Shown here piece after piece: positions 2,013 through 63,905 of a stretch of 64,000 bases of DNA; the stretch's first letter is position 1; the number at the start of each line of letters is the position of its first letter. Under the pieces are notes generated by a model. It was not told where the DNA came from, did not search any database, and saw only the letters and a program-made list of their open reading frames with translations. Both the position numbers and the translations under genes were made by a program. Source of the stretch: Lysobacteraceae bacterium (lineage in GTDB: Bacteria; Pseudomonadota; Gammaproteobacteria; Xanthomonadales; Rhodanobacteraceae); NCBI GenBank assembly GCA_004143945.1, contig SEHB01000003.1, positions 248,001 to 312,000 of the forward strand, given 5' to 3'.

Positions 2013-3410
2013 TCAGGCCGGATCGAAGCCGTTTACGAAGATCGCGTCGCCGCGACGCTCGTACGCGCCGGCGTCGAAGCCCGCGCCCTGCGGCCGCGGC
2101 ACGCGGTCGGCATCGAGCGGTGGCGCCGATTCGGCGCTGCCCGCGTCGACCGCGGCCGCGCCGTCGCGCAGGTGCAGGTCGAACGGCGCATCGACGAACA
2201 GGCTCGCGGCATCGTCGGCGTCGAGGTTGTGGTCGGCGGTGATCTCGATGCCGTCGAGCGCATGGTCGGTCGCGAGGTTGTTGCGCACGAGCACGCGCTC
2301 GCTCGGCCGCCCGTCCTTGTGGTCGTGCACCATGATCCAGGGCGGACCCGGCTGGCCGCCCGCGAGGTCGATCACGGTGTTGTTGGCGATGCGCGAATCG
2401 CGCATGCCGTAGAAGCTGATGCCGTGCCAATGGTCGGTCACGACGACGTTGTTCTCGACGACCCACCCGTCGAAGAAGCCATCGAAGCAGCCGATGCCCT
2501 GCATCGAGCTGCGCAGCGGATTGGACGGATCGGTCGCGTTGACGAACACGTTGCCGCGCAGCACCACGCCGGTGACCGCGCCGGTGCCGACGCCGTCGGG
2601 CCCGTACGACCAGCTCTGGAAGCCGTCGTCGTGGTTCTCGTCGAAGTCGTCGCCGATGAGGTTGTTCTGCACGCGGTTGTACTCGAACACGCCGCGGTCG
2701 CCGAGGCCGCGCATGCCGTCGGCGGAGAAGCCGTCGACGAGGTTGCGCAGGATGCGCGCATCCACCCCCGACACCGCGATGCCGAACCGCACGTTGCGGA
2801 TGCGGCTGTCGCGCAGCGTGACGCGCGCCGCGTCGATGTCGACGCCGCTCGACGCGAGCTCGACCCATTCGGCCGGACCCCAACCCGAGGCGTCGTCGAT
2901 CGAGTGGATATCGAGTTGGGCGAGCTCGATGTCGTACGCGGGACCGGACCAGCCGTGATCGGCCACCTCGACGATCGTGACCTGCTCGTTGGTCGCGCCG
3001 AACGACGGGCTGATCTCGAGCCCGCTGATGCGCCAGTTCTGCGCGGAACGCACGCGCAGGCTGCGCAGGCGCGCCGTTTCGCCGGGCGCGGCCGCGATCG
3101 TGATCGGCGCCGCGTTGTACAGGTGCTCGATCGCGACGTCGCCGTGGTAGCCGGCGTGCAGCAACAGCGTGTCGCCCGCGTGCACGGGCGCGCCGGCGTT
3201 GACCGGCACCAGCACCATGCCGTCCTCGTACGGGTATCCGGGCCAGTCGCGGCTCTCGACGAGGCCGGCCTCGAACACGGCCTGCAACGATTGCCACGGC
3301 TGCGCCGCGCTGCCGTCGCCGCCCGCACTGCCGTTGACGGGATCGACGTGGAAGGTGGTCGCGCCGAGCGGCGTCGCCCCGATGAGGAACAGCAGCAAGG
3401 CGCAACGCAT
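2013..3410 (-). CDS. Secreted right-handed beta-helix protein with C-terminal GF tag
   Basis: A 465-residue protein starts at ATG 3410 with a short signal peptide (MRCALLLFLIGATPLGA) followed by FHVDPVNGSAGGDGSAAQPW, the usual opening of parallel beta-helix proteins of the pectate-lyase or Disaggr-repeat type. Repeated segments such as VTLRDSRIRNV, VVLRGNVFVN and RVLVRNNLA are helix rungs, and the end has the typical VDAGS...DAGAYERRG. The last nine residues, AIFVNGFDP then A, carry the short tag seen in other secreted proteins here. Carbohydrate binding or cleavage is plausible, but no catalytic residues could be assigned. Confidence 0.85.
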   Translation of the reverse strand: MRCALLLFLIGATPLGATTFHVDPVNGSAGGDGSAAQPWQSLQAVFEAGLVESRDWPGYPYEDGMVLVPVNAGAPVHAGDTLLLHAGYHGDVAIEHLYNAAPITIAAAPGETARLRSLRVRSAQNWRISGLEISPSFGATNEQVTIVEVADHGWSGPAYDIELAQLDIHSIDDASGWGPAEWVELASSGVDIDAARVTLRDSRIRNVRFGIAVSGVDARILRNLVDGFSADGMRGLGDRGVFEYNRVQNNLIGDDFDENHDDGFQSWSYGPDGVGTGAVTGVVLRGNVFVNATDPSNPLRSSMQGIGCFDGFFDGWVVENNVVVTDHWHGISFYGMRDSRIANNTVIDLAGGQPGPPWIMVHDHKDGRPSERVLVRNNLATDHALDGIEITADHNLDADDAASLFVDAPFDLHLRDGAAAVDAGSAESAPPLDADRVPRPQGAGFDAGAYERRGDAIFVNGFDPA

Positions 3411-3515
3411 GGCCGGTCCCGGCTTCGAAGGATCCCGATTGCACCACTGCGGATAGGCCACGACCGTGACGCGTTCCCGATCCCGGCGAGCGCACCGGGC
3501 GGGCCGCTGACTTGC

Positions 3516-3601
3516 AGGCTGGGCGCGCGCAGCGCGGCCGGCGCTGCTCGCATGGTCGCGGGTCGGTACGACGCCGGCCGGCCTGCGGCCGTCCAGCCTG
3601 C
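3516..3601. repeat. Two copies of the AGGCTGGACG / GCCGGCCGGCG palindromic repeat
   Basis: Upstream of the beta-helix gene lie two inverted copies of an intergenic element: AGGCTGGGCGCGCGCAGCGC (from 3516) and GCCGGCCGGCCTGCGGCCGT leading into CCAGCCTGCG (to 3601). Related copies occur at 13407 and three times at 20270-20440, and a degenerate copy at 6867. It is a short high-GC palindromic repeat confined to intergenic DNA. Confidence 0.6.
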
Positions 3602-3630
3602 GAATGCCGTCGCGCACGACGTGGCGCTGT

Positions 3631-4263
3631 TCAGTCGCGCATGCCCTCACGATGCCAACGCAGCACCGCATCGGGCAGCACCGACTCGAGCGGCAGATCG
3701 AGCGCGGCGCAGGCATCGAGCGCGTCGCGCAGCGCGCGCGCGGGCCGGCCGGACCCGCCGGGTGCGTCGACCGCGTTGAAGCGTTCGTATTCGGCCTGCT
3801 CGAGCATCGCGAGCGACCAGTCGTGCAGGCGGTCGAGCCGCGCGCCGAGCTCCGCGCGCAACCAGCCGCGCAGTGGCGCGTGCAGCTCGAGCCCACCGTC
3901 GGCACACAGCGCACGCACGTGCGCGAGCGCGTCGTCGTGCACGCCCGCGTGCCATTCGGTATGGCCGGCCGCGGACTTCGGCACCACGAACGGCGCGATC
4001 GCGCGCTGCGCCGCATGGCGCACGAGCAGCGCGCGTTCGAGCCGCCGCGCGTCGGCCACGCGCTCGAGCTCGACCAGCGCGCCCGCGTCGAGGTCGAAGT
4101 AGTCGAACCAGCGCGCATGCAGGGTCTGGAACCGCTGCAGCGGCGTGCTCGAGTAGCCGATCTTCACGAGGTCGGACTCGCGGCACGGCAGCAGGTAGAC
4201 GAAGCTGCGGCCGCTGCCGCGGCTGCTCGTGCGCGGCTCGGGGAATGCACTGGGCGAGGGCAT
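3631..4263 (-). CDS. GIY-YIG nuclease family protein
   Basis: A 210-residue protein whose first third contains FVYLLPCRESDLVKIGYSS, matching the GIY-YIG fold (a Y-L-L strand, then KIGYS) as found in the T5orf172/Mug113 subgroup. It is followed by a conserved region with many charged residues (LERALLVRHAAQRAI, FVVPKSAAGHTEWHAG). The family contains nicking or homing-type nucleases and DNA-processing proteins. No dedicated DNA-binding domain is visible, and the function in this organism is unknown. The start at 4263 is the ATG closest to the domain; the next upstream region is a simple repeat. Confidence 0.7.
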   Translation of the reverse strand: MPSPSAFPEPRTSSRGSGRSFVYLLPCRESDLVKIGYSSTPLQRFQTLHARWFDYFDLDAGALVELERVADARRLERALLVRHAAQRAIAPFVVPKSAAGHTEWHAGVHDDALAHVRALCADGGLELHAPLRGWLRAELGARLDRLHDWSLAMLEQAEYERFNAVDAPGGSGRPARALRDALDACAALDLPLESVLPDAVLRWHREGMRD

Positions 4264-4291
4264 CGGTCGGCGGCTTCGGTGGTCCCGCGAT

Positions 4292-4330
4292 TGTGCGCGC
4301 ACGCGCGCGCACGCGCACGCGCACGCGCAT
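4292..4330. repeat. Alternating purine-pyrimidine GCGCAC simple repeat
   Basis: About 39 bases of GCGC/GCAC units lie between the divergent GIY-YIG and FAD-oxidoreductase genes. The tract is a potential Z-DNA-forming or slippage-prone segment in their shared upstream region. No function can be read from it. Confidence 0.7.
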
Positions 4331-4389
4331 TCATGTCCGCGCAAGCCGGCTGCGGCGACGATGCGCGCACTCCGGGCAGGCGGCAGTGC

Positions 4390-5598
4390 ATGGACCTCAA
4401 GAGTGGATACCCCTGGTGGGTGGTCAGGAACGGGCTGCTCGGCGACTACGGCGCGCTCGCCGAAGACCTCGACTGCGACGTGCTCGTGATCGGCGCCGGC
4501 ATCACCGGCGCGCTGATCGCGGACGAGCTCGCGCGCGCGGGCCTGCGCACCTGCGTGGTCGACCGCCGCGACGCGGGCTGGGGCAGCACCGCGGCGAGCA
4601 CCGCGCTGCTGCAGTACGAGATCGACGTGGAGCTTCGCGCGCTCGCGCGCGAACGCGGGCTGCGCGATGCGCTGCTCGCGTACCGCGCGTGCGCCGATGC
4701 GGTGCGCGCGCTGACCCGGCTCGCGCGCACGCTCGGGCGCACCGGCGTGATGCCGGTGCGCAGCCTCTACCTCGCGAGCCGCGGCTTCCACCGCACGCGC
4801 CTGCGGCACGAGGCGGCGCTGCGACAGGCGCACGGTTTCAAGGTCGAAGTGCTCGAAGCCGAGCCACTGCGTACGCGATTCGACCTCGATGCACCGCTCG
4901 CGCTGCTCACCGCGCCCGCCGCGGTGGTCGACCCCTACCGCTTCGCGCATCGCCTGCTCGCACGCGTGCGCCGCCACGGCGGTCGCGTGCACGATCGCAC
5001 CGGCGTCGCCGGGTTCCGCGTGCGACGCGGCGGCGTCGACGCGGACCTCGAGAATGGCGCGCGCGTGCGCTGCCGCCACCTCGTGGTCGCGGCCGGGTAC
5101 GAAGGCCAGCGTCACCTCGACCAGCGCGTCGCGCGCAACCGCAGCAGCTACGCGTTCATCACCGACCCGCTGCCGGCCGGCCAGGGACTGCTGCGCGATT
5201 GCGTGGTATGGGAATCGGCGCGGCCCTATCTCTACGCGCGCGGCACGCCCGACGGGCGCGTGCTGTTCGGCGGCGAAGACGACCGCATCGACATCCCCGC
5301 GCGACGCGACGCGCGCCTCGCGGGCAAGACCGCGCGCCTGCGCGCGAAGGCGCGCAAGCTGCTGCCCGCGCTCGACATCGAGCCCGCGTTCGCATGGGCC
5401 GGCACGTTCGCCGAGACCGTCGACGGGCTGCCGTTCTTCGGCGCGCACGAGCAATACGGCCCCCGCGTGTTGTTCGCGATGGCCTACGGCGGCAACGGCA
5501 TCACCTACAGCCAGATCGGCGCCGGCCTGCTGCTCGACACGATCCGCGGACGACGCCATCCCTGCGCACGGCTGTTCTCGTTCGACCGCCTGAAGTGA
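4390..5598 (+). CDS. FAD-dependent oxidoreductase (DAO family)
   Basis: A 402-residue flavoprotein with the ADP-binding Rossmann motif DVLVIGAGITGALIADELA at about residues 29-47, a dinucleotide-binding acidic end (VVDRRDAGWGST), and the C-terminal FAD contact YGGNGITYSQIGA. It belongs to the D-amino-acid-oxidase/GlpO-like fold (PF01266). The WGSTAAST segment is typical of FAD-binding oxidases acting on amines or amino acids. The substrate cannot be predicted. The start at 4390 gives an N-terminal extension (MDLKSGYPWWVVRNG) common in this subgroup. It is divergent from the GIY-YIG gene and convergent with ackA. Confidence 0.88.
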   Translation: MDLKSGYPWWVVRNGLLGDYGALAEDLDCDVLVIGAGITGALIADELARAGLRTCVVDRRDAGWGSTAASTALLQYEIDVELRALARERGLRDALLAYRACADAVRALTRLARTLGRTGVMPVRSLYLASRGFHRTRLRHEAALRQAHGFKVEVLEAEPLRTRFDLDAPLALLTAPAAVVDPYRFAHRLLARVRRHGGRVHDRTGVAGFRVRRGGVDADLENGARVRCRHLVVAAGYEGQRHLDQRVARNRSSYAFITDPLPAGQGLLRDCVVWESARPYLYARGTPDGRVLFGGEDDRIDIPARRDARLAGKTARLRAKARKLLPALDIEPAFAWAGTFAETVDGLPFFGAHEQYGPRVLFAMAYGGNGITYSQIGAGLLLDTIRGRRHPCARLFSFDRLK

Positions 5599-5611
5599 GG
5601 CGCGCCGCGCC

Positions 5612-6826
5612 TCAGCGCGCGAGCAGGTCGAGCGCGTCGCGCGCCGCGACCCATTCCTCGTTGGTGCGCTCGACCGCGATCACGAGCCCGGAATCCGCGC
5701 GCGAGATCACCGCCTCGTGGCGTGCGTTCGCCTCCTCGTCGAGGCGCGCGTCGAGGAAGCCGAGGTCGGCGCAGACGCGGCGCCGGATCTCGGCGTTATG
5801 TTCGCCGATGCCGGCGGTGAACGCGAGCAGGTCGAGTCCGCCGAGCACCGCGGCGAGCGCGCCGATCTCGCGCACGATGCGACGCACGTAGAGCGCGAGC
5901 GCGGCGCGCACGCGCTCGTCCCCGGCTTCCAGCGGCAGCAGCGCGCGCGGATCGGACGAGACGCCCGACACGCCGAGCAGCCCGGACCGGTGGTACAGCA
6001 GTTCGCCGACCTGCTCGAGCGTGAGTCCCTGCACCTGCATCAGGTGGAGCACGACGCCGGGGTCGAGCGCGCCACAGCGCGTGCCCATCATGAGGCCATC
6101 GAGCGAGGAGAAGCCCATCGTGGTCGCGACCGAGCGCAGCGACTGCATCGCGCAGAGGCTTGCGCCGCTGCCGAGGTGCGCGACGATCGTGCGCCCGCGC
6201 GCGCGCTCACCGTGGCGCTCCGCGAGCGCGTGCGCCATGTATTCGTAGGACAGGCCATGGAAGCCGTAACGGCGCACGCCCTGCTCCCACGCGTCGTACG
6301 GCAACGCGAGCATGCGTTCGACATCGGGCATCGTGTGGTGGAATGCGGTGTCGAAGCACGCGACCTGCGGGATCGCGGGCACCGATGCATGCAGTTCGGT
6401 GATCGCCTCGAGCGCGAACGGCTGGTGCAGCGGCGCGAGCGGGATGTACGAGCGCAGGTCCGCGAGCACCGCATCGTCGATGCGCACCGGCGCGAAGTAG
6501 CGGCTGCCGCCGTGCACGACGCGGTGCGCGACCGCGACGATGCGCCGTCCCGCGAGACGCGCACGCACGCGTTCGCGGATGTGCGCGAGCGCGGCGCGGT
6601 AGGGCGCCTGCGGATCCAGCACGAGCGGACCCGGGTCGACGCCGGTTTCGCCGAAGGTCGGCTGCGCGCCGGTGATGCCGTCGACCTTGCCGTTCCACTC
6701 GGCCTGGCGCGGCAGCGGCGACGCGGCCGCGTCGAACAGCGCGAACTTGATGCTCGAGGAGCCGCAGTTGAGGACCAGCACGAGGCCTTCGCGCACGGTG
6801 GAACCTGGTTCGGGGAACGGCGTCAT
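5612..6826 (-). CDS. ackA: Acetate kinase
   Basis: A 404-residue enzyme that interconverts acetate plus ATP and acetyl phosphate plus ADP in overflow and fermentative metabolism. It shows the acetokinase signatures VLNCGSSSIKFALFD near the N-terminus, VAHRVVHGG in the first third, FDTAFHHTMP, and FTAGIGEHNAEIRRR near the C-terminus; its length is normal for AckA. No phosphotransacetylase gene lies next to it, which is unusual because ackA and pta are often paired. Its 3' end lies 13 bases from the convergent FAD oxidoreductase. Confidence 0.97.
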   Translation of the reverse strand: MTPFPEPGSTVREGLVLVLNCGSSSIKFALFDAAASPLPRQAEWNGKVDGITGAQPTFGETGVDPGPLVLDPQAPYRAALAHIRERVRARLAGRRIVAVAHRVVHGGSRYFAPVRIDDAVLADLRSYIPLAPLHQPFALEAITELHASVPAIPQVACFDTAFHHTMPDVERMLALPYDAWEQGVRRYGFHGLSYEYMAHALAERHGERARGRTIVAHLGSGASLCAMQSLRSVATTMGFSSLDGLMMGTRCGALDPGVVLHLMQVQGLTLEQVGELLYHRSGLLGVSGVSSDPRALLPLEAGDERVRAALALYVRRIVREIGALAAVLGGLDLLAFTAGIGEHNAEIRRRVCADLGFLDARLDEEANARHEAVISRADSGLVIAVERTNEEWVAARDALDLLAR

Positions 6827-6896
6827 CGCGCCGAGCGTAGCAGGAGCACCGCGCGGGTGCGGCGCGCGCGAGCCGGCCGCGCTGCGCGCGTGCGGC

Positions 6897-8294
6897 CTAC
6901 GGCGGGTCGGAATCGAACAGCTTGCCCGGATTGAGGATTCCGCCCGGGTCGAGCACGCGCTTGATGCCGCGCATCAAAGCGATCTCGGCCGCGCTGCGCG
7001 TGCCCTCGAGGTGCGGCTTCTTGACCAGGCCGATGCCGTGTTCGGCCGAGATGCTGCCGCCGACCTCGGTCAACGCGGCCGACAGCGCATCGGTGACGTC
7101 CTCGCAGCGCGCGAGGAACACCTCTTCGGACACCGATGCGGGCTTGAGCACGCTGATGTGCAGGTTGCCGTCCCCGAGGTGGCCGAACCAGACCACGTCG
7201 AAACCCGCGTAGCCCTCGGCGAAGATCGCCTGCATCGATTGCATGAAGCGCGGGATCGCGCCGATGCGCATCGAGATGTCGTTCTTGTAGGGACGATGCG
7301 GCGCGAGGCTTTCGGTGATGCCTTCGCGCAGGCGCCAGAGCGCGGCGGCCTGCGCCTCGCTGCGGCTGATCACGCCGTCCTCGACCCACCCTTCGCCCGC
7401 GCAGTGCTCGAACAACGCAAGCGCCGCGTCGCGCTGCGCGTCGTTGGCCGCATCGAACTCGGCCAGCACGTAGTACGGCGAGGTGCCTTCGAACGGTCGC
7501 TGCGCGCCGTGGCGCAGCACATGCTCGAGCGCGCGAACGGTGAAGAACTCGAACGCGGACAGGCGAAGCCGGCTGCGGCAGGCGTCGAACACCCGCATCA
7601 GCGCCTCCATGTGCGGCAATGCGAGCAGCATCACGCTGGACGGCGGCGCCGGATCGGCGAGTCGAACCGTGACCTCGACGACGATGCCGAGCGTGCCTTC
7701 CGAACCGATCGCGAGGTGGCGCAGATCATAGCCGCTCGCGTTCTTGACGAGGCCTCGGTTGAGATCGAGCAGGTCGCCGTTGCCGTCCACGAGCTTGATC
7801 CCGCCGATCCATTCGCGCGTGTTGCCATGACGGATCACGCGGATGCCGCCCGCGTTGGTCGCGACGTTGCCGCCGATCGTGCACGAGCCGCGCGACGCGA
7901 AGTCGACCGGGTATGCGAGGCCGCGTTCGACCGCCGCCTTCTGCAGGTTCTCGAGCACCAGGCCCGCCTGCACCGTCAGCGTGCGGTCGACCGGATCGAA
8001 GTCGAGCACGCGGTTCATGCGTTCGAGGCTCACGACGAGCTCGCCGCGCGCGGCGACCGCGCCGCCCGACAGCCCGGTGCGTCCGCCCGAGGGCACCAGG
8101 CCGATCGCGTGTTCGCGCGCCCAGCGCACGATCGACTGGACCTCGACGGTCGAATCGGGCAGCGCGATCGCGAGCGGCGCCGGGGTCCAGCGCCGCGTCC
8201 AGTCGCGCCCGTAGTGCTCGAGGTCGGCAGCATCGGTCTTCAACACCAGCTCCGGCAGGCGGCGGGCGAGATCGGCAAGGGCGGCGGCGTTCAT
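6897..8294 (-). CDS. FAD-linked D-2-hydroxyglutarate dehydrogenase-like oxidoreductase
   Basis: A 465-residue flavoenzyme of the GlcD/D-lactate/D-2-hydroxyglutarate dehydrogenase family. It has a PCMH-type FAD-binding half (LVPSGGRTGLSGGAVA, GNVATNAGGIRVIRHGNTRE, SEGTLGIVVEVTVRL) and a C-terminal catalytic half with FGHLGDGNLHISVLKP and the ending EHGIGLVKK...DPGGILNPGK. It is transcribed divergently from serA. In Pseudomonas, SerA makes D-2-hydroxyglutarate from 2-oxoglutarate and a D2HGDH recycles it, which pulls serine synthesis forward; this arrangement suggests the same coupling, which is inference. ATG 8294 was preferred to 8387, which would put the start almost on top of serA. Confidence 0.88.
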   Translation of the reverse strand: MNAAALADLARRLPELVLKTDAADLEHYGRDWTRRWTPAPLAIALPDSTVEVQSIVRWAREHAIGLVPSGGRTGLSGGAVAARGELVVSLERMNRVLDFDPVDRTLTVQAGLVLENLQKAAVERGLAYPVDFASRGSCTIGGNVATNAGGIRVIRHGNTREWIGGIKLVDGNGDLLDLNRGLVKNASGYDLRHLAIGSEGTLGIVVEVTVRLADPAPPSSVMLLALPHMEALMRVFDACRSRLRLSAFEFFTVRALEHVLRHGAQRPFEGTSPYYVLAEFDAANDAQRDAALALFEHCAGEGWVEDGVISRSEAQAAALWRLREGITESLAPHRPYKNDISMRIGAIPRFMQSMQAIFAEGYAGFDVVWFGHLGDGNLHISVLKPASVSEEVFLARCEDVTDALSAALTEVGGSISAEHGIGLVKKPHLEGTRSAAEIALMRGIKRVLDPGGILNPGKLFDSDPP

Positions 8295-14086: not shown

Positions 14087-15409
14087 TCAGGGTTCGTACC
14101 CGTCCTCGAACAGCGCATCCATGCGCGCGCGCATCAGCGTCACGTAGTCGGGGCCGATCGCGTTGTCCTCGAAGAACGTGCGCCCGAACATCAGCGCCTC
14201 GCCGTTCGCGAAGGCCATGCCGTGGATCTGCGAGTACGGTCCGCTCTGGCCCTGCCCTTCGGGATCGGCGACCACGTAGCTGCGCCAGCCGACGTCGTTG
14301 AAGCCGGCGTCGAGGCTGCCGTCGTGGTGCAGGCGCACGAGCGTGAAGCGCGTGCGCGTCGCGATCTCGAACGGGAACGACACGCGCGCGAGCAGGATCT
14401 TTCCGTGCGGCAGCAGCGCGAGCGTGTTCGAGGTCTCGCCGAACGCCGACAGCGTGACGTTCGGGCCGAGCGGGAAGAGGCGCAGCGCATCGGGCTCGAC
14501 CGTGCCGTCCGCGTGGATGCGCGCGACCAGCACGCAGCACGATTGCATGCCGTTGTTGCCATCGCCGGCGACGACGAGGCTGCCGTCGCGGTCGACCGCG
14601 ATCGCGCGCGCGGCGATGCCGTTGTAGCCCTCGGGCGGATCGAGGTCGACGATGCCCTGCACGCCGAACGCGGGGTCCGGTGCACCGGAAGCATCAAGCG
14701 AGGCGACCACGAGGTTCGGCCCGTGGCTGTTGCCGCGCGAACCCGCAAGCACGATGCGCCCGTCCGCGCGCAGTGCCATCGCGGCGAGCGTGCGTGCACC
14801 GCTCGTCGACGCGGTGGTGATCGTCGCGACACCGTCGTCGCCGAACGCGGGATCGGGTGCGCCATCGGCGAGGAAGCGGTACACGCGCATCTCCTGGCCG
14901 TCGTTGCCCGCGAGCAACCAGCGTCCGGCGGCGTCCCGCAGCAGGCGCGCGGCGACGAAGTCCGGATCCGGTCCGCCCACCGCGGCGGGGAAAGCAGGGT
15001 CGAGCGTGCCATCGGCGCTGATCCGGCGCAGGCAGCGCCCGGTCCACGCGACGAGGCTCCCGTCATCGAGCGGCGCGATCCGCACCGGCCGCGGACCGAC
15101 GCAGTCGTCGAGTTCAAGCAGGCCGTCGCCTGCGAAGCCGGGATCGAAGGTTCCGTCGCGCCGCATGCGCGCGACCCAGAGCGACCCGATTCCGTTCTCC
15201 ATCGCCCACGCGATCCGCCCGTCGGGCAGCGTCGCGACGTCGCCGACCCAGGCCTGGCCGTTGCCGAACTCGACCGGGCGCACCTGCGTGACCTGGTGCC
15301 CATCGCCGAACGCGGGATCGAGGTCGGCATCGGCCGCGTGCGCGGCGAGCGCGCATCCGGCCAGGAGCCACGCCAGGAGGACGCGTGTGTGGCGCTCGAT
15401 TCCCGTCAT
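14087..15409 (-). CDS. Secreted delta-60 repeat protein with C-terminal GY tag
   Basis: A 440-residue exported protein (signal peptide ending near GCALAAHA). The body holds at least six copies of the delta-60 repeat, recognisable by DLDPAFGDG, TFDPGFAGDG, TLDPAF, APDPAFGDDG, APDPAFGVQG and SLDAGFNDVGW at 50-70 residue intervals, which usually forms a beta-propeller-like structure. The C-terminus ends ALFEDGYEP, a variant of the short tag on other secreted proteins here. The function of delta-60 proteins is unknown; they are often extracellular. Confidence 0.88.
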   Translation of the reverse strand: MTGIERHTRVLLAWLLAGCALAAHAADADLDPAFGDGHQVTQVRPVEFGNGQAWVGDVATLPDGRIAWAMENGIGSLWVARMRRDGTFDPGFAGDGLLELDDCVGPRPVRIAPLDDGSLVAWTGRCLRRISADGTLDPAFPAAVGGPDPDFVAARLLRDAAGRWLLAGNDGQEMRVYRFLADGAPDPAFGDDGVATITTASTSGARTLAAMALRADGRIVLAGSRGNSHGPNLVVASLDASGAPDPAFGVQGIVDLDPPEGYNGIAARAIAVDRDGSLVVAGDGNNGMQSCCVLVARIHADGTVEPDALRLFPLGPNVTLSAFGETSNTLALLPHGKILLARVSFPFEIATRTRFTLVRLHHDGSLDAGFNDVGWRSYVVADPEGQGQSGPYSQIHGMAFANGEALMFGRTFFEDNAIGPDYVTLMRARMDALFEDGYEP

Positions 15410-15510: not shown

Positions 15511-15993
15511 CTACTTCGGCATCAGCTCGAACCCCGATCCGAAGATCCAGTCGGGCGCGATCGGGACGCCATCGAGGTCGCGATCGAGGGCGTCGGTCGA
15601 GGGGCGGTTGTCGACGTCCTCTTCGGCGAGTCCGTCGCAGTCGTCGTCGTAGAAGTTCCCGGCGACCTCGGCCTGCATGGGATGGATCGCCGTATCGGTA
15701 TCGTCGCAGTCGCCCTGCTCGAGCGAGAAACCGTCCGCGTCGTGGTCGACCGGATCGGTCGAAGGCACGTCGTTCACGTCCTCGTCGGCGAGCCCGTCGC
15801 AGTCGTCGTCGATGAGGTTGCCGGCGATCTCGGGCTGGCCGGGGTGGACGGCCTGGTCCACGTCGTTGCAGTCGCCGCCGGACAGCGTGCCCGTGGGCGC
15901 CACGAACATGCCGTCTTCGACGGACGCCGCGAGCGCGGCCCCGCAGGCGATCGGCAATACGACGAATGCGAGGGCAAGCACGCGGCGACGCAT
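15511..15993 (-). CDS. Secreted MopE-like metal-binding repeat protein with C-terminal GF tag
   Basis: A 160-residue protein with a signal peptide (MRRRVLALAFVVLPIACGAA) and two tandem copies of an acidic repeat: GDCNDVDQAVHPGQPEIAGN then IDDDCDGLADEDV, and GDCDDTDTAIHPMQAEVAGN then YDDDCDGLAEEDV. This is the putative metal-binding (MopE-type) repeat with calcium-coordinating Asp ladders and paired cysteines. The C-terminus has DWIFGSGFE followed by five residues, fitting the shared tag. It lies 101 bases upstream of the delta-60 gene on the same strand and may be co-transcribed with it. Confidence 0.85.
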   Translation of the reverse strand: MRRRVLALAFVVLPIACGAALAASVEDGMFVAPTGTLSGGDCNDVDQAVHPGQPEIAGNLIDDDCDGLADEDVNDVPSTDPVDHDADGFSLEQGDCDDTDTAIHPMQAEVAGNFYDDDCDGLAEEDVDNRPSTDALDRDLDGVPIAPDWIFGSGFELMPK

Positions 15994-31082: not shown

Positions 31083-31290
31083 TCAGGCCTGGTGCCCGTC
31101 GACGAAGATCGCGTCCTGGTATGCGCCGGTTTCCGCGCGAAACCGCCCGTTAGCGGGCGGGAACCGGTGGTCCTCGCGATCAGCGGGCGAGAACAGCAGC
31201 GGCAGGCCACTCGGATCAAGGGCGTGCCGCTGCCGAGGTGGTAGTCGCCCGCCGCGGGGCTCGCGAACATCGGATCGACGTCGGTGACCT
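31083..31290 (-). pseudogene. C-terminal fragment of a secreted beta-helix protein, frameshifted, with GF-like tag
   Basis: On the minus strand the sequence reads VTDVDPMFASPAAGDYHLGS then GTPL, the standard end of beta-helix proteins, and after a one-base frameshift near 31220 continues PSGLPLLFSPADREDHRFPP, then RAETGAYQDA and the terminal IFVDGHQA with a stop at 31083. It resembles the end of the intact gene at 2013-3410. There is no 5' part: upstream it meets a repeat core (ACGTGAACCTGATCCC) at 31291. Confidence 0.7.
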
Positions 31291-31310
31291 ACGTGAACCT
31301 GATCCCGATA
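31291..31310. repeat. Variant repeat core (GTGAACCTGATCCC)
   Basis: ACGTGAACCTGATCCCGATA is a variant of the core at 35957 (AAGTGAACCTGACCCCGTTC). It separates the beta-helix fragment from the 3' end of the thioredoxin-like gene, whose stop is only 10 bases away. Confidence 0.5.
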
Positions 31311-31319
31311 TTGATCCGC

Positions 31320-32222
31320 CTAGTGAAGCCCGAGCTGGCCAAACGCCCGGACCAGTTCATCCGCTTTCGATTCGCCTTCCCAACCCACAACGCTGGAAAC
31401 CAGTTTCCCGCCCTGAAAGAAGTAGAACGCTGGCGTCGCCCATGACCGTATGAATTTCCACTGCTTCCGATCAAGAACGATTGACAGGGGCAGCTTGTCA
31501 TTCTCCTGGTTCCAGCGAGCGATATCCTTGATGTTCGGAACGATCGACTGGGGCGTTATCCACGTCGAGTAAGTCTTCATCAGGCGAAGAAGGTTGGGCG
31601 AGCGAGAGATCGCACGCCCTGCATTCGTCGAGAATGCGCACCATGGAGAACCTACGACAATCACATGCGCGCCTTTCGGCAACGCGAAGCTAACCAAGCG
31701 GACCGTACGCGCGTCGTTCTCGATCCGCATGAGCTCGGGCGTTGCCTCCCGCGAATCGGCCTCATCGATGACTGTCAGGCCTGAAAGCTCGCTGACAAAA
31801 GGATGTGTCGCGCCGAAGGCAGGGATCGAATCGAACATGCGCGCAGCGAAATAGTGACTGACGACAGTCCTGGCGTCCGCAGTCGTTGCGATCTTCCTTC
31901 GCTCCAGCTCGTCGAATGCAGTACGCAGGTCGACTGCGTAACGGGCATCGTTGAAATAGAACGACAGTGTCTCGGCACCGGCGAAGTAGTTCCGCACGTC
32001 GATGTCGGAAAGTCGACTCATCGAAGCTTGATCGATTCTTGAGCGCAAGCGCTTGTAGATTCGTTCCAACTCCGGATTCTTCTGTTCGGGGTGCAGGAGT
32101 TCCGCATCGGCGCGTTTCAGGTCGCTGACGACTTGCGAAAACGTGTCCGATGCACTCACCTGCCCGGAGACGAGCAGCAACAGCCATACCAGTGCGGCCT
32201 TCAGTCCCAGCGCCTTGGGCAT
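31320..32222 (-). CDS. Exported thioredoxin-fold protein lacking the second redox cysteine
   Basis: A 300-residue protein with a signal peptide (GLKAALVWLLLLVSGQVSAS). The N-terminal half is helical and unassigned. The C-terminal half (about 170-300) looks thioredoxin-like: VIVVGSPWCAFSTNAGRAIS sits where a WCxxC site is expected but has a serine in the second position, followed by the strand FYFFQGGKLVSSVVGWEG. A monothiol or structural role is likely. The lower GC content and mixed codon use differ from the core genes around it. I cannot name a family. Confidence 0.7.
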   Translation of the reverse strand: MPKALGLKAALVWLLLLVSGQVSASDTFSQVVSDLKRADAELLHPEQKNPELERIYKRLRSRIDQASMSRLSDIDVRNYFAGAETLSFYFNDARYAVDLRTAFDELERRKIATTADARTVVSHYFAARMFDSIPAFGATHPFVSELSGLTVIDEADSREATPELMRIENDARTVRLVSFALPKGAHVIVVGSPWCAFSTNAGRAISRSPNLLRLMKTYSTWITPQSIVPNIKDIARWNQENDKLPLSIVLDRKQWKFIRSWATPAFYFFQGGKLVSSVVGWEGESKADELVRAFGQLGLH

Positions 32223-32483: not shown

Positions 32484-32568
32484 AGAAGGGCGGCTCCGAC
32501 CCCAGTTTTCTCCCCACGCCAGAGCTTCGGGCAGGTTTCGTCCAGAAGGGCGACTCTGACCCCATTCC
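32484..32568. repeat. Repeat family A, two cores in tandem, ending at the neighbouring stop codon
   Basis: AGAAGGGCGGCTCCGACCCC (from 32484) and AGAAGGGCGACTCTGACCCC (from 32544). The second is followed by ATTCC and then, at 32568-32570, the reverse complement of the stop codon of the LPMO-like gene. No spacer remains between repeat and gene. Confidence 0.75.
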
Positions 32569-33092
32569 TATGCTCCCTCGAATCCGTCATGGAAGACGCC
32601 GTCGCGAACGAGGATCACGTCCGCACACTGCCAATGTAGATCGTCGGTGTTGCCGTCGGCGGTATAGGGCAAATGATCGGTCAGGACCTGCAGCAGCTGG
32701 ATCGTGCAGTTGTCGCATTCGATATCAGGCAAGACCAGCGAAAATGACCGGTTCGGGTCGTCCGACAGGCCGGGAATGTCGTCGGCGACGACATTCGAAT
32801 CGGTGTGGAGATCGTCCGGCGAGGCGGGCACCGAAAAATCCTGGCCGTCTTCGTCGAAGCTGATGCGGAAGTGACCGGGATGCGAGATCGTACTGGTCCA
32901 GCGCAGTGTGGTCGTAGAGCCCGCCGACAATGTCGTCTCGTTCGCCCGCCCGGTGTCGGGGTCCTGCCCGCAAGGTCGCCCGAACAGCGTCGTCTCGTAG
33001 CGGGACACGGGATCGACCAGGTCGAAATGCGCGAGCGCCGCAACAGGCGTCGCGACCAGCAGGACAAACGCAATCGCAGCAGTGCACCGCAC
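32568..33092 (-). CDS. Secreted polysaccharide monooxygenase-like protein (SCE4755-like) with C-terminal GF tag
   Basis: A 174-residue protein with a signal peptide whose predicted cleavage (AALA, then HFDLVDPVSRYE) would leave His22 as the mature N-terminus, as needed for the copper histidine brace of lytic polysaccharide monooxygenases. Other landmarks are ISHPGHFRISFDEDG (H71, H74) and CDNCTIQLLQVLTDHLPYTA then LHWQCADVIL. This resembles the SCE4755 family of LPMO-like proteins. It ends GVFHDGFEGA, the shared C-terminal tag. Oxidative activity is an inference; the second brace histidine is not certain. Confidence 0.75.
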   Translation of the reverse strand: MRCTAAIAFVLLVATPVAALAHFDLVDPVSRYETTLFGRPCGQDPDTGRANETTLSAGSTTTLRWTSTISHPGHFRISFDEDGQDFSVPASPDDLHTDSNVVADDIPGLSDDPNRSFSLVLPDIECDNCTIQLLQVLTDHLPYTADGNTDDLHWQCADVILVRDGVFHDGFEGA

Positions 33093-56754: not shown

Positions 56755-57997
<1,243 letters not shown>

Positions 57998-58199
57998 TGG
58001 ATCACTCCCGGCGAGGGAGAAGGATGCGGCGCGGTCTCCCGTCAACCACCGCTGCAAAGCCTGAAGAGTTTACCAAGCCCTCGCAGCTTGTAGCAATCAC
58101 GCGCGCGGGTTCGCGCGTGCATCGGAGCCGGAGATGCGCGTGACGCCGTCCTCCCGGGCTGCGTCCGATTGCCGCAGCGCATGCAACGCCGCCGGGGCC

Positions 58200-58230
58200 A
58201 AAAAAAAGAGGCCGGACAGGGTCCGGCCTC
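58200..58230 (-). terminator. Rho-independent terminator of the phasin gene
   Basis: On the minus strand the perfect 10-bp stem GAGGCCGGAC / GTCCGGCCTC with a 3-base loop is followed by eight T. It lies 64 bases downstream of the phasin stop and upstream of the atp operon. Confidence 0.9.
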
Positions 58231-58293
58231 CAACTGGACGCCACCGCAACAGGGGAGATGCGGCGGCGTCGATTCCCTGTGGGAACCGTTGCC

Positions 58294-58680
58294 TCAGCGG
58301 GCGGCCTTGCGCGCCGTCGCGGCCTGCTTGGTCATCGCTTCGCTGGTGTTCTCGAGGCTGCCCTTCGCGAGCGAGCCGAGCGCTTCGGAGGTCTTCAGCG
58401 AGACGCCGAACACTTCCTGGCTGTTGGCGTAGAGCTTCTCGGCGCTTTCCTTGGCGAGCTGGACGCCCTTCTCGGAAATCGTCTTCAGGCCTTCGAAATC
58501 GCGGACTTCGGCGGCCTCGGTCCAGAACTCGACCGACGCCTTCATGCGCTCTTCGAACGCCTTGAGGTTGAGCTCGGTGATGCGCTCGAAACCGGCGAGG
58601 GCCAGGCCCTGGGCCTTGACGAAGGTATCGGCATAGCTCTTGCCGAGCGCCGCGTTTTGGGAATTGATCTGCTCGAACAT
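58294..58680 (-). CDS. Phasin family protein
   Basis: A 128-residue helical protein of the phasin_2/PhaP type (MFEQINSQNAALGKSYADTF, GFERITELNLKAFEERMKAS, ending MTKQAATARKAAR). Phasins coat polyhydroxyalkanoate granules, so the organism probably stores PHA, although no pha biosynthesis genes are in the window. It is monocistronic with its own terminator. Confidence 0.92.
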   Translation of the reverse strand: MFEQINSQNAALGKSYADTFVKAQGLALAGFERITELNLKAFEERMKASVEFWTEAAEVRDFEGLKTISEKGVQLAKESAEKLYANSQEVFGVSLKTSEALGSLAKGSLENTSEAMTKQAATARKAAR

Positions 58681-58905
58681 GATCGTTGCCTCTGGGTGTC
58701 TGGGGAGTGTGGAAGGCACTCTAGCAGAGGTTTTGTTGCGATGCAACACGCGAAGGGTCGCAGAACGCAGGATCGGGGCCTTCGTTCAGCCCTAGGCCAT
58801 GTCCATCAATGGGTTGCGTTTGGACTCGCGCATGTTGCGGCGCAGGTATCCTGCCGCGGTCGGCGATCCGCGAAAGCGCATCGGGGCGTGGACCCCCTGC
58901 CGCGG

Positions 58906-59274
58906 TCACGCGCGACGCTGGCCGCCGCGGTAGCGACAGGTCGAGGTGCAGGTTTCGTGCACGACGACTTCGCACAGTTGCGGCAGCCCGGGACGCAGGC
59001 GCTCCCAGATCCACGCCGCGAGGCGTTCGCTGGTCGGATTCTCGAGGCCCGGCACGTCGTTGAGGCAGCGATGGTCGAGCTGGTCGAACAGCGGTTCGAA
59101 CGCCTTCTTGATGTCGGCGTAATCCATGATCCAGCCGAGTTCGGGATCGAGCGGTCCGGTGACATGGATCTCGATGCGGAACGAGTGGCCGTGCAGGCGC
59201 GCGCACTTGTGCCCCGCGGGCACGTTCGGCAGCCGGTGCGCCGCCTCGATCTGGAAGGTCTTCGAAATCTCCAT
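58906..59274 (-). CDS. queD: 6-carboxy-5,6,7,8-tetrahydropterin synthase
   Basis: A 122-residue enzyme of queuosine synthesis (7-deazaguanine pathway). Zinc ligands are His13 (IEAAHRLP), His28 and His30 (LHGHSF); the catalytic Cys24 lies in GHKCARLHGHS. The segment GWIMDYADIKKAFEPLFDQL then DHRCLND and the C-terminal ETCTSTCRY are standard. Other que genes are not adjacent. Confidence 0.96.
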   Translation of the reverse strand: MEISKTFQIEAAHRLPNVPAGHKCARLHGHSFRIEIHVTGPLDPELGWIMDYADIKKAFEPLFDQLDHRCLNDVPGLENPTSERLAAWIWERLRPGLPQLCEVVVHETCTSTCRYRGGQRRA

Positions 59275-59403
59275 CGCGGCGAGTCTACTGGAGGCCGGGC
59301 CCGCGGCGCCGCCACCGTCGTCGCGCGCCTGGCGGGAATCCGCGCGGCTTCTCGTGAGACGGGGTGCGGGCGCCGTGTCCGCGCGAGTCCGATGGAGTAA
59401 CCG

Positions 59404-59976
59404 ATGCAGACGATGGAACGCGCACAGGACGCCCGTGCCGGCGCCTGGTGCTTCGGCGGCTTCAGGCTCGATCTCGCACGCGAGGAACTGGTCGGCCCCG
59501 GCGGCGTGCGGATCCTGCGGCGCAAGGCCTTCGCGACGCTGCGCCGCCTGCTCGAGGCCGCGCCCGCGCTGGTCACGCTCGACCAGTTGCTCGACGATGT
59601 CTGGGGCCGGCACGCGATTTCGCCGAGCGCGGTGCCCAACGTGATCGTCGAACTGCGCCAGGCGCTCGGCGACGACGCGCGCGCGCCGCGCTTCATCGAG
59701 ACGCGGCATCGGCGCGGCTACCGCATCGTCGTGCCGGTCACGCGCGAGCCCGCGACGCGAACCGCGAGCGGCGTGACGCAACGTGGCGGTGCCCTGCTCA
59801 CCGCGCTCGAGGCCTGCGCGCGGCAGCCGGCCGCGATGCCGCACGCGCGCCTGCGCCGGCTGCACGAGCTTGCCTGTGAAAACGGCCTGCCGTTCCTCGC
59901 GATCGAAGTGCGCCTTGCCTTGCAGGCGCTGTGCGGAAGCGACACGAGTCTCGCGCGCCGCCTGGTCGGAAGCTGA
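59404..59976 (+). CDS. Winged-helix (OmpR/CadC-type) DNA-binding protein without receiver domain
   Basis: A 190-residue protein. The first about 110 residues form an OmpR-type winged helix: FGGFRLDLAREELVGPGG, LRRKAFATLRRLLEAAPALV, LLDDVWGRHAISPSAVPNVI, VELRQALGDD and the wing RFIETRHRRGYRIV. There is no phospho-receiver or membrane segment; the C-terminal 70 residues are helical and unassigned. It is convergent with the kinase/ECF sigma operon, their ends 21 bases apart, and may belong to the same regulatory unit. Confidence 0.85.
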   Translation: MQTMERAQDARAGAWCFGGFRLDLAREELVGPGGVRILRRKAFATLRRLLEAAPALVTLDQLLDDVWGRHAISPSAVPNVIVELRQALGDDARAPRFIETRHRRGYRIVVPVTREPATRTASGVTQRGGALLTALEACARQPAAMPHARLRRLHELACENGLPFLAIEVRLALQALCGSDTSLARRLVGS

Positions 59977-59997
59977 CGCCGCCGGTGCGCAGCGGCC

Positions 59998-62406
59998 TCA
60001 GCCCGCGCGCGCGAGCTCACGATCGAGCGCCGCGAGTTCGCGACGCGCGGCATCGAACTCGGGCCGATCCGGCAACAGCGCGTGCGCGCGTGCGGCCTGT
60101 GCGCGCGCCGCGCGCGCATCGCCCGAACCGAGCTGCATGAATCCACGCTCGATCGCGAGCATCGCATGGCTCGGATGGGAGGCGTGCAGGTCCTGCCAGA
60201 CCCGCGCGGCCTGCTCGAGCGCAGGCGCGGCCTCGGCGCCGCGGCCGAGCTTGCGCAGCACGCGCGCCTCGCCGAGCCACAGGTCGCCGCCGTCCCAGCC
60301 GAGGCGCGCTCCGAACAGGTCGGGCTGTTGGCCATGGCGGAACGCCGCGACCGCGCCGTCGAGGTCGCCGAGCTGCTCGCGCGCGCGAGCGAGCGTTTCG
60401 TACTGCATCGACAACGCGGTGCGCCCGCGCGCGCCGCTCGCTTCGTTGATCGCGATCGCGCGTTCGATCGCGCTGCGTGCCTCGGCGACGCGCCCGAGTT
60501 GCAACTGGTAGTTCGCGACGAGGAACAGGTGGCGCGCGTACTCGGTGTGCTGTTCGCCCCACAGGCGCCTGCGGACCTCGCCATCGCTCGCGACCAGCGC
60601 ATCGGCCTCGTCGTAGTCGCCACGCGCGATCAGCAATCCCGCGAGGCCGAGCGCGGCGAGGCTGGTATCGGGATGATCGGTCCCGTTGAGGCGCGCGAGC
60701 GTCGCATAGCCCTGGCGCTTCAGCGTGAGCGCCTCGTCGAAATAGCCGCCTTCGGCGAGCCGGCCCGAGAGGTCGTGCATCGCGCGCGCGGTCGCCGCGT
60801 TGTCGGCGCCGAGGCGTTCGAGCGCGCTCGCGAGCGCGGCGCGATTCTCCGCGATCGCGCGCTCGAGCTGGCCGTCCTGGTTGAGCCGGATCGCCTTCAG
60901 GCGCCACGCATGGATGCGTCGCTCGGCCTGGCTCTTGCGATCGCCGTACAGCTGCATCGCTTCGTCGACGAGCGCGAGCGATCGCGCGCGGTCTGGCGCG
61001 TCGGACAGCTGCGCCGCGAGGCCGTACGCGACGTCCGCGAGCAACGCTGGGTCGGGCGCTTCCTCGCGTTTGAGCAGTGCATACGATTCCTCGTACAGCG
61101 CGCGACTGCTGTCGCGCTCGCGCCGCTGCGAGTACATCTTGCCGAGCATGTAGAGCAGGCGTGCGCGCAGCGCGGGCTGGTTCTCGAGGCTCGTGCGCAG
61201 CTGCGCGGTGCCGTAGGCAAGCGCTTCGGCGACGGTCTTCTCCTCGCCGCGGTGCTGCTGCGGCGTCGCCCACATCAGGAGGCCCGACAGGAACTCGATC
61301 GCGGCTTCCGCGCGTTCGGCCTGCGCCGTGGCGCGCACCGCCTGCGCGCGCGCTGCGTCGCGTTCGATCGCGACGCGCCAGCCGGCGCCGGCCAGCAACA
61401 CGATGCCGAACAGTGCGCCCGCGACCGCGACCGGATGGCGCCGCACGAAACGCGACGCGAGGTAGCCGACGCCGCCGGCGCGCGCCGCGACGGGGCGATG
61501 CGCGAGGAAGCGCGCGATGTCATCTGCGAGCGCGGCGACGCCCGCGTAGCGCTCGCGCGGGTCGAGCGCGGTGGCGCGCTGGAGGATCGCCGCGAGATCG
61601 CGCGGCAGCGCGCGCAGCTGCGCGCTCGCGAGCGCCACCGGCGCGGCGCCGGGCGCGGCACCCGCGAGCGCAGTTGCGTGGCCCTCCGCGGCGGGCACCG
61701 GCAGCACGTCGAGCAGCGCCGCGACCAGCAAGCCGGCCTGGTAGACGTCCGAGCTCACCGTCACCGCTTCGCCGCGCCATTGCTCCGGGCTCGCGTAGCG
61801 CGGCGTCAGCGCATGGTTGCCGAGCAGGTCCTGCTGGTCGGCGAGCCGCGCGATGCCGAAGTCGAGCAGGCGCACGCGTCCCTGCGCGTCGACGAGCACG
61901 TTCGAGGGCTTGATGTCGCGATGCACGAGCAGGCGCGAATGCGCGAATGCGAGTGCGTCGCACAGCTCGAACGCGAGCTGCAGGCGCTGCGCGCGCGTCG
62001 CGACGTGGTGGCGGCACCACGCGTCGATCGGCTCGCCCTCGACGAGTTCCATCGCGAACCAGAGCATCGAGTCCGCCGTGCGCCCGCCGTCGATGAGGCG
62101 CGCGATGCCCGGGTGCTCGAGCCCGGCCAGCGTCTGCCGCTCGCGCCGGAACAGTTCCTCGGCGGCGCTGCGGTCGCCCGCGACCGCCATCCATTTCAGC
62201 GCGACGCGCTGCTCGAACTCGCCGTCGGCGCGCTCGGCGAGATAGACGATCGCCATGCCGCCGCGCGAGAGCTCGCGCACGATGCGGAACGCGCCGATCG
62301 CATCGCCGGGCTCGAGCTCGCGCGGCGGCGGCGACTGCGCGAGCAGCGCGCGCACCAGCGCGCCGCCGAAGGCGCCACCCGTGCGCAGGCGTTCGCGGTC
62401 GATCAC
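59998..62406 (-). CDS. Membrane Ser/Thr protein kinase with TPR repeats
   Basis: An 802-residue protein: cytoplasmic Hanks-type kinase (about 35-300) with the glycine-rich loop LSRGGMAIVYLAER, catalytic lysine in VALKWM, HRDIKPSNVL with His162-Asp164, DFGIARLAD and an SPEQW segment; then one transmembrane helix (about 322-342, VAVAGALFGIVLLAGAGWRV) and about 440 residues of TPR-like repeats outside. The start is GTG 62406, overlapping the sigma factor stop by 4 bases. ECF sigma/kinase pairs of this type are known in Xanthomonadales and Planctomycetes; the kinase may control the sigma factor. Confidence 0.92.
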   Translation of the reverse strand: MIDRERLRTGGAFGGALVRALLAQSPPPRELEPGDAIGAFRIVRELSRGGMAIVYLAERADGEFEQRVALKWMAVAGDRSAAEELFRRERQTLAGLEHPGIARLIDGGRTADSMLWFAMELVEGEPIDAWCRHHVATRAQRLQLAFELCDALAFAHSRLLVHRDIKPSNVLVDAQGRVRLLDFGIARLADQQDLLGNHALTPRYASPEQWRGEAVTVSSDVYQAGLLVAALLDVLPVPAAEGHATALAGAAPGAAPVALASAQLRALPRDLAAILQRATALDPRERYAGVAALADDIARFLAHRPVAARAGGVGYLASRFVRRHPVAVAGALFGIVLLAGAGWRVAIERDAARAQAVRATAQAERAEAAIEFLSGLLMWATPQQHRGEEKTVAEALAYGTAQLRTSLENQPALRARLLYMLGKMYSQRRERDSSRALYEESYALLKREEAPDPALLADVAYGLAAQLSDAPDRARSLALVDEAMQLYGDRKSQAERRIHAWRLKAIRLNQDGQLERAIAENRAALASALERLGADNAATARAMHDLSGRLAEGGYFDEALTLKRQGYATLARLNGTDHPDTSLAALGLAGLLIARGDYDEADALVASDGEVRRRLWGEQHTEYARHLFLVANYQLQLGRVAEARSAIERAIAINEASGARGRTALSMQYETLARAREQLGDLDGAVAAFRHGQQPDLFGARLGWDGGDLWLGEARVLRKLGRGAEAAPALEQAARVWQDLHASHPSHAMLAIERGFMQLGSGDARAARAQAARAHALLPDRPEFDAARRELAALDRELARAG

Positions 62407-62960
62407 CGCGGATCCTGTGCGGCGAGCCACTCGCGCGCGCGCGCCCACTCGCGCTGCACGGTGCGCGTCGAGAGGCCGAGCGCCGTCGCAGTCTCCTCTT
62501 CGCTGAGCCCCGCGAAGAAGCGGCAGGCGACGACCGCGGCCTGTTGCGGCTGGTCGTGCTCGAGCTTGCGCAGGAGGTCGTCGATCGCGAGCAGTTCCTC
62601 CGCGTCGCGCGTCTGCGCGAGTTCGATGTCGTCGAGGTCGATGCGCTCGGCGCCACCGCCGCGCTTGTGCGCGAGCCGCGCGCGCGCCATCTCGATCAGC
62701 AGGTGGCGCATCGCCTGCGCGGCGATCGCGAGCAGGTGGTCGCCGTCGTTGATGCCGGGGCAATTGCGGATCAGGCGCAGGTAGCACTCGTGCACGAGGC
62801 CGGTGGTGTCGAGCGTCGCGCCGCCGAGGCTGCGCCGCGCGCGTCGCGCGAGCACCTGCAGCTCGGCGTAGGCGCACGCGAATATGCGGTCCCAGGCGGC
62901 GCGGTCACCCGTGCGCGCGAGCGCCAGCGCGTCGGCGAGCGGGGCGGCTTGCTCGTTCAT
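62403..62960 (-). CDS. ECF-type RNA polymerase sigma factor (TIGR02999-like)
   Basis: A 185-residue sigma-70 factor. Region 2 is visible in ADALALARTGDRAAWDRIFA then CAYAELQVLARRARR and TGLVHECYLRLIR; region 4 has ACRFFAGLSEEETATALGLS then TRTVQREWARAREWL. The HECYLRL form and the spacing fit the ECF subgroup encoded with Ser/Thr kinases rather than anti-sigma factors. No anti-sigma gene is present; the downstream kinase is translationally coupled. Confidence 0.93.
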   Translation of the reverse strand: MNEQAAPLADALALARTGDRAAWDRIFACAYAELQVLARRARRSLGGATLDTTGLVHECYLRLIRNCPGINDGDHLLAIAAQAMRHLLIEMARARLAHKRGGGAERIDLDDIELAQTRDAEELLAIDDLLRKLEHDQPQQAAVVACRFFAGLSEEETATALGLSTRTVQREWARAREWLAAQDPR

Positions 62961-63128
62961 GTCCAGGGGTCGAAGCCGGCTGCGATCGGCAGGCCCGATT
63001 ATGGACCCGGCGGCCACGCGGGCGACCGTGATGTGATCGAAATATCACGCTTCGCGGATCGGCTTGCGACAACCGGTGGCGCCCGCGGCGCGATCCTGCA
63101 CCACCCTGCCCCGACCGCCGACCCCGCC

Positions 63129-63905
63129 ATGCTGCCGACCCGCATCCTCCCCTCCGCCGGAATCCGGACCGTGGGCCTGCGCGCGAGCCTGCTCGCCGGG
63201 CCCGTGCTCGCGCTGCCGACGCACGCGCTCGCAGATGCGCCACCGCTGCACGCGGACTTCGACGCCGAACCCGTCGATGCCGCGATCGCGACCGGTGGCG
63301 CACTGCTCGGCCAGCCGATCACGGTCGACGAAGGCCTCTCGGCGATCGTGCGCGAGTCCGTGTTCGCGACGCCGTCGCTGGAGCTCTCGCACGATGCACC
63401 GGGACTCGCGCGCGCGCTCCGTTTCGAGTTCGTCGACGCGCAGGAAATCGCGCACGGCGACCTCGAGATCGCGTTCACGTTCCGCGCCGACCAGCTCGAC
63501 TTCTTCAGCCTCGTCTACGTGCGCGAGCAGGGCGGAAGCGCGCAATCGTTCCTCACGATGGAACTGCATTCGACCGGCGACGTGCTCGCGAACGATGCGA
63601 GCGGCGAGCCTGCAGCGGTGGTGGGCCACTACGTCCCCGGCGTCGGGCAGCGCGTGCTCGCGACGTTCCACCTCGATGCCGGCACCTGGGACCTCGCGAT
63701 CGACGACGTGCCGGCCGTGACCGCACGCGCGCACGGCGTGCACGGCCGCGGCATCGGCGGCCTGCTGTTCGGCACGCACCACCAGACCGCCGCCGGCAGC
63801 CTGCTCCATCTCGACGACGTCGAGGTGCGCCGCGGCGACCGCATCCTCGTCGACGGATTCGAGCAGGCCATCACGCCCGTCGACGGTGTGGAGGCGCCGC
63901 AGTAG
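63129..63905 (+). CDS. Secreted lectin-like protein with C-terminal GF tag
   Basis: A 258-residue exported protein (signal region LRASLLAGPVLALPTHALA). The mature part is beta-rich (LHADFDAEPVDAAI, LARALRFEFVDAQEIAHGDL then EIAFTFRAD, GRGIGGLLFGTHHQ, LLHLDDVEVRRGD) and resembles LamG/jelly-roll-like carbohydrate-binding domains, without a firm match. The tag DRILVDGFEQ is followed by 13 further residues, so here it is not quite terminal. It lies divergent from the ECF sigma factor and may be one of its targets, which is speculation. Confidence 0.75.
   Translation: MLPTRILPSAGIRTVGLRASLLAGPVLALPTHALADAPPLHADFDAEPVDAAIATGGALLGQPITVDEGLSAIVRESVFATPSLELSHDAPGLARALRFEFVDAQEIAHGDLEIAFTFRADQLDFFSLVYVREQGGSAQSFLTMELHSTGDVLANDASGEPAAVVGHYVPGVGQRVLATFHLDAGTWDLAIDDVPAVTARAHGVHGRGIGGLLFGTHHQTAAGSLLHLDDVEVRRGDRILVDGFEQAITPVDGVEAPQ

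Follow-up and report, generated by a model that had tools for sequence, protein, structure and literature searches.

Presence of a short tag on exported proteins of the Lysobacterales largely, but not strictly, parallels that of one type II secretion machine across species, and the tag may be an address label of a kind not known for type II secretion

Introduction

C-terminal labels of exported proteins take several forms. The type IX C-terminal domain of the Bacteroidota, a fold of about 80 residues, is a label for export to the outer membrane, and the PEP-CTERM signal has a membrane helix and a basic end. PEP-CTERM/exosortase is described as a many-to-one tag discovered through phylogenetic profiling (PMC1569441). 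GlyGly-CTERM, which is coupled to type II secretion in Vibrio cholerae, combines a stretch rich in glycine with a transmembrane helix and a basic tail; a rhomboid protease processes it, and type II secretion calls for a separate signal (PMC13393428). As to type II clients themselves, the parts of PMC7949064 and PMC12369372 drawn on here place the determinants of Pel3/PelI and VesB in structural loops or an immunoglobulin fold on folded clients, read with the help of GspC, and give a common linear signal as not known; the latter source, in the same part, states that the GspC PDZ domain is required for some clients. Here we describe a nine-residue tag found on exported proteins in a 64-kb stretch of the genome of a Lysobacteraceae bacterium (the whole stretch being referred to as the window), and compare its distribution across the order Lysobacterales/Xanthomonadales with that of a second type II secretion system.

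An earlier note on this DNA had named six C-termini in the window as sharing a tag that could be a sorting, secretion or processing signal specific to this lineage. We find that the tag is a real export label, under selection and specific to the order, and that its presence across species mostly, though not strictly, matches that of one type II machine, for which it may be an address label of a new kind. No report of the tag was found among the papers listed in searches of the open-licence literature, which is not proof that it is undescribed.

Results

The window's own genome (3.67 Mb in 29 contigs) contains 57 matches to the pattern F-x-[DN]-G-F-E and none to the reversed pattern, so that the presence of the tag on unrelated exported proteins, first claimed for the window, extends genome-wide and lies far beyond chance. 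Fifty-six matches were re-read with about 4 kb of upstream sequence, the 57th being the window's own 32568 gene, whose tag is a strict match (C13:280577-280594). The tag lies 0 to 24 residues before the stop in 50 of the 56 (0 to 4 residues in 36 of these), against 5.1 expected under uniform placement, and these short remainders bear out the statement that it comes without a membrane helix or basic end. The consensus is D-x-[ILV]-F-x-[DN]-G-F-E: D occupies position -3 in 50 of 56 tags, and I, L or V occupies position -1 in 54, neither position being part of the search pattern. The motif as originally drawn is thereby refined to nine residues that begin with D, and its C-terminal location holds mostly, not strictly. 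Because the 56 tags use 40 distinct 18-base spellings, and an AT-rich relative (G044) encodes the same peptide with AT-rich codons, the tag is conserved at the protein level.

Most of 61 close genomes are either tag-rich (10 to 113 matches) or near background (0 to 5 matches), the reversed pattern giving 0 to 4. A class-wide draw of 370 genomes included 365 from other orders, not one of which has more than 8 matches. Within the order the tag is found in most families, and matches from families other than that of the window are C-terminal in 28 of 32 and 29 of 33 cases (some matches being in both sets). Specificity to a lineage thus stands at the level of the order and falls for any narrower one. 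Nor is the motif internal as often as terminal, non-C-terminal instances being few in tag-rich genomes (6 of 56, 4 of 32 and 4 of 33); in 11 tag-poor genomes, 5 of 27 scattered matches lie within 24 residues of a stop and one looks genuine. Among 397 genomes of the order, 82 have at least 10 matches and 315 have fewer.

This on/off distribution largely follows that of a second type II system, here called class 1, whose gspC-D-E-F cluster lies near G000:C3:83-89 kb and has Pfam matches to T2SSC, Secretin with GspD N0, T2SSE and T2SSF in that genome. The PDZ domain of GspC is below the Pfam cut-off in G000 and above it in G031, and a separate I-J-K-L-like pseudopilin cluster, recognised by eye in G031, G041, G050, G055 and G435, was not located in G000. 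In a GspD search, tag-rich genomes had an extra, higher-scoring GspD beside another full-length GspD. The other, near-universal secretin, which from its gene order we take to resemble the Xps system, is present in tag-rich and tag-poor genomes alike and does not track the tag. With the G000 class-1 sequence as query, 17 class-1 sequences scored at least 483 bits, the tagless genome G057 of family f2 scored 423 and other secretins at most 169. A class-1 profile was built from the 17 sequences and the tag pattern was counted on the same 397 genomes, a full class-1 GspD being defined by a best match at E<=1e-200 and a tag-rich genome by at least 10 matches. T2SSK (PF03934) was discarded as a marker of the second machine, being too unspecific.

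A full class-1 GspD is encoded by 94 of the 397 genomes, 72 of which have at least 10 tag matches. Co-occurrence with a type II secretion gene, which the earlier note had suggested looking for, is accordingly strong but imperfect: 72 of the 82 tag-rich genomes have a full class-1 GspD, as against 22 of the 315 others. The remaining tag-rich genomes have pieces of the gene (six: G709, G533, G511, G521, G502 and G498) or none (four: G445, G506, G454 and G482). Contrasts within families agree with a link between tag and machine in f1, f2, f8 (g337) and f9, where G054 has no secretin and 5 matches. The class-1 GspD sequences of the order make up a single clade in a phylogenetic tree (61 rows, support 100), with Steroidobacteraceae and Woeseiaceae as its neighbours (support 91). 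Since the tree largely follows families within this one clade, class-1 GspD is probably ancestral in the order, and tag and machine seem to have been lost jointly in most genera of f1, f2 and f8 and in G054.

Several observations weigh against so direct a link. Both cut-offs (10 matches and 1e-200) were chosen after the data had been seen, and the genomes are related, leaving few effective independent events, perhaps four, for which reason the Fisher value for the counts makes the association look stronger than it is. Fifteen Wenzhouxiangella genomes (g31, including G428, Wenzhouxiangella sp. 15190, and G448, Wenzhouxiangella sp. XN79A) encode a full class-1 GspD and have only 0 to 5 tag matches. 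A class-1 GspD is likewise accompanied by few tags in G590 and G666 (0 matches; a sister pair in the tree), G467 (2), G455 (4) and G522 (5), and by sub-threshold counts in G755 (7) and G493 (9). G001, a metagenome-assembled genome that is labelled Rhodanobacter sp., is 80% complete and is congeneric with the window's genome, encodes class-1 GspD and GspC and gives zero tag matches. Seven full-length, slightly more distant class-1-like secretins lie just under the cut-off (634-654 bits; G607, G568, G738, G646, G733, G726 and G693) in genomes with 0 to 2 tags; also under it are nine f2 matches of 562-571 bits (0 to 1 tags) and a more numerous group, at about 450-507 bits, from f2 genomes poor in tags. 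The GspC of tag-less class-1 systems retains the PDZ-aligned region, for which reason presence of the PDZ domain was rejected as an on/off switch for tags.

Tags also occur where the machine is missing. Three f8 genomes (G454, G482 and G525) lack class-1 GspD and T2SSC, yet have good C-terminal tags (L349, L350, L355, L357, L359, L364, L367 and L372; 30 of 47 matches read). G445 (90% complete) has 38 tag matches and neither class-1 GspD nor T2SSC, G502 (41 tag matches) has a GspD piece and no T2SSC match, and G506 has T2SSC and no class-1 GspD match. Orthologs of an M28 peptidase vary at their ends as well: they are tag-ended in G000, G764 and one G654 copy, have weaker ends in G019 (IFGDDFD) and G004 (IFADAFE), and are without a tag end in G013, G724, the other G654 copy and the tag-poor G639 and G036.

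Sixty tagged proteins, comprising the 56 and four of the window's five intact ones, were scanned for families. Those listed (25 of 44 and 25 of 42) include delta-60 repeats, choice-of-anchor Q, B and J, M36, M28 and S8 peptidases, GH44, endonuclease I, kelch, FG-GAP, beta-helix and DUF1800. The choice-of-anchor Q, B and J and M36 families carry known sorting tags elsewhere, as family names also imply. No NCBIfam model of a tag was among the 25 of 44 families listed for the 60 proteins, short models being ones that HMMER filters may miss; ten isolated tails searched at E<=10 gave a single match, to one choice-of-anchor Q stretch, and one 20-residue tail gave none in a PDB sequence search. By a crude heuristic with choice of the best start, most of the 56 carriers have signal-peptide-like N-termini; five of them (L050, L058, L060, L063 and L074) are short open reading frames, apparently truncated or mis-started. 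Applied to the window and seven loci of the same genome, a one-rule heuristic, which over-calls and is weak evidence, passed all 11 tagged genes and 46 of the 107 untagged ones. Lipoprotein anchoring was rejected, a loose lipobox-like string being present in only 7 of 56 proteins and, by eye, within ordinary signal peptides. The M28 peptidase was modelled with AlphaFold from 6 sequences, giving a modest model (mean predicted local distance difference test score, pLDDT, of 68) whose tag-bearing residues 409-432 are at pLDDT <50, as are low-scoring stretches elsewhere in it.

Six of the 56 tags are not C-terminal, three standing directly behind the signal peptide (L038, L049 and L054) and three before a further domain (L047, L048 and L078). 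L049 and L054 are DUF1800-like, and their downstream partners, which by eye we take to be DUF1501-like, have no tag. In G038 and G040 a strict tag is found at the C-terminus of the DUF1501-like twin-arginine partner and none on the DUF1800-like one, while the pair in G041 has no tag. There is thus exactly one tag per DUF1800/DUF1501-like pair in 4 of 5 pairs, placed N-terminally on the mature DUF1800-like protein or C-terminally on its DUF1501-like partner (L387, L388, L152, L154 and L156); that the partners form a complex is an assumption. A tag at either end, or on one partner of a pair only, is the pattern expected of a docking label. Other placements were seen in passing. A tag some 207-213 residues before the protein end recurs in G019 and G029 (L111; L148 and L153 on the minus strand), and the secreted protein L121 starts with one tag and then SIFADGFETGDTSAWT, directly behind the signal peptide, a possible relative or source of the tag.

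Beside the class-1 cluster, a delta-60-like protein adjoins gspC divergently in G000 and G019 and ends in IFADGFD or IFRYGHE; in two more relatives, Dokdonella sp. ACE_PRO71 (with a gap) and UBA703, homologs close to the cluster have IFKNGFD as their end. These cluster-associated homologs share 24-34% pairwise identity, and G000 groups with a Dokdonella metagenome-assembled genome in the class-1 GspD tree. Across 80 named class-1 loci, a tag-like end beside the cluster was found only in ACE_PRO71, UBA703 and one Marinicella, leaving aside a single match that looks like chance. In 20 loci and the window, the only families found repeatedly next to tag genes are an extracytoplasmic function (ECF) sigma factor (4 genomes), a family of about 325 residues (3) and the DUF1800/DUF1501-like pair (3). 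At one class-1 gsp cluster, an ECF sigma factor (PF07638) and a Ser/Thr kinase with tetratricopeptide repeats lie beside a tagged protein (L157:13631-17231); the related ECF reading frames near tag genes in four genomes include one in the window (62403-63017).

All six C-termini named in the earlier note are present in the window sequence (Table 1), and the relaxed motif, run over every stop-to-stop reading frame, returned these six and no others. The five intact tagged proteins have signal-peptide-like N-termini by eye. The sixth, fragment 31083-31400 on the minus strand, is a short broken reading frame with an in-frame stop upstream that has kept its tag-like end.

Table 1. Instances of the tag in the 64-kb window
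Instance	Position	Strand	Core	Residues from tag to stop	Location
Tag DAIFVNGFD	2022..2048	-	IFVNGFD	2	C-terminus of beta-helix protein (gene ends 2013)
Tag DALFEDGYE	14093..14119	-	LFEDGYE	1	C-terminus of delta-60 repeat protein, 14087-15409
Tag DWIFGSGFE	15526..15552	-	IFGSGFE	4	C-terminus of MopE-like protein (gene ends 15511)
Tag-like DAIFVDGHQ	31089..31115	-	IFVDGHQ	1	End of broken gene fragment, 31083-31400
Tag DGVFHDGFE	32577..32603	-	VFHDGFE	2	C-terminus of lytic polysaccharide monooxygenase (LPMO)-like protein, 32568-33092
Tag DRILVDGFE	63837..63863	+	ILVDGFE	13	Near C-terminus of lectin-like protein ending 63905

Discussion

From the co-distribution we infer that the class-1 machine reads the tag, and we tentatively favour, at slightly less than an even chance, the view that the tag would be a linear motif, specific to this lineage, for docking to the class-1 type II machine. 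Usually within the last 9-30 residues, it probably sits in a flexible tail, and would mark folded periplasmic proteins as clients of the class-1 system and not of the near-universal other one; the PDZ domain of GspC and the N-domains of GspD would be its natural candidate readers. It is possible, with the chances leaning against it, that this would be the first short transferable linear type II signal, one by which tens of unrelated folded proteins in each genome would be directed to one of two coexisting machines, from either end and once per complex. Of the functions initially proposed, sorting or secretion fits, the tag being carried by exported proteins of many folds and tracking the second type II system, and processing is less likely because some tags lie directly behind the signal peptide or before another domain.

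The main alternative, a possible though less probable one, is a surface-retention or anchoring label with a separate extracytoplasmic receptor or enzyme, the class-1 system being merely the usual route or lost with the same lifestyle. The choice-of-anchor and M36 families among the carriers point in this direction, and the f8 tags without a class-1 machine, together with the Wenzhouxiangella machine without tags, suggest another reader. Tags behind a signal peptide or before a domain, however, fit poorly with cleavage and attachment at the tag, the membrane helix and basic end are lacking, and no common enzyme gene recurred beside tag genes in a limited search of 20 loci and the window. Less probable still, and in our view unlikely, is a structural end-piece or relic, for example of the secreted domain start SIFADGFETGDTSAWT, or a periplasmic chaperone or stability element. 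The arrangement in L121 and the six non-C-terminal tags would suit such an origin, but the motif stands at the very end of unrelated folds with no domain after it, in most families of the order and with repeated on/off switches, and the only model made, that of the M28 peptidase, has low confidence at the tagged end. Chance or base composition, for which no supporting point was found, is negligible in view of the reversed control (57 versus 0), the AT-rich codons of G044 and the positional bias.

What determines client choice in type II systems is still an open matter, which a conserved motif makes directly testable. With 10 to 113 genomic matches in tag-rich species, clients could be listed straight from sequence and a tagged reporter used to test recruitment, and the tag could serve as a simple export tag for folded enzymes. 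Whatever its reader, the tag defines a large sorting-type class with no NCBIfam model among the families listed in our scans.

Among known signals, those of the PEP-CTERM and GlyGly-CTERM type were set aside as identities for the tag, which has no helix, as were the Bam beta-signal and the type IX domain, whose definitions do not fit, and a SpyTag-like isopeptide strand, which it may resemble. The closest parallels are nevertheless instructive. GlyGly-CTERM/rhombosortase likewise has a short motif at the C-terminus of many unrelated exported proteins in a genome, but the present tag is without helix or basic end and may be internal or N-terminal. PEP-CTERM is alike in assigning many proteins to one tag and in the phylogenetic-profile approach, and again differs in its membrane helix and basic end. 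The type IX domain is also a C-terminal export label, although a fold of some 80 residues as compared with nine residues here. Finally, unlike the determinants of Pel3/PelI and VesB, the tag of the Lysobacterales is a short linear motif.

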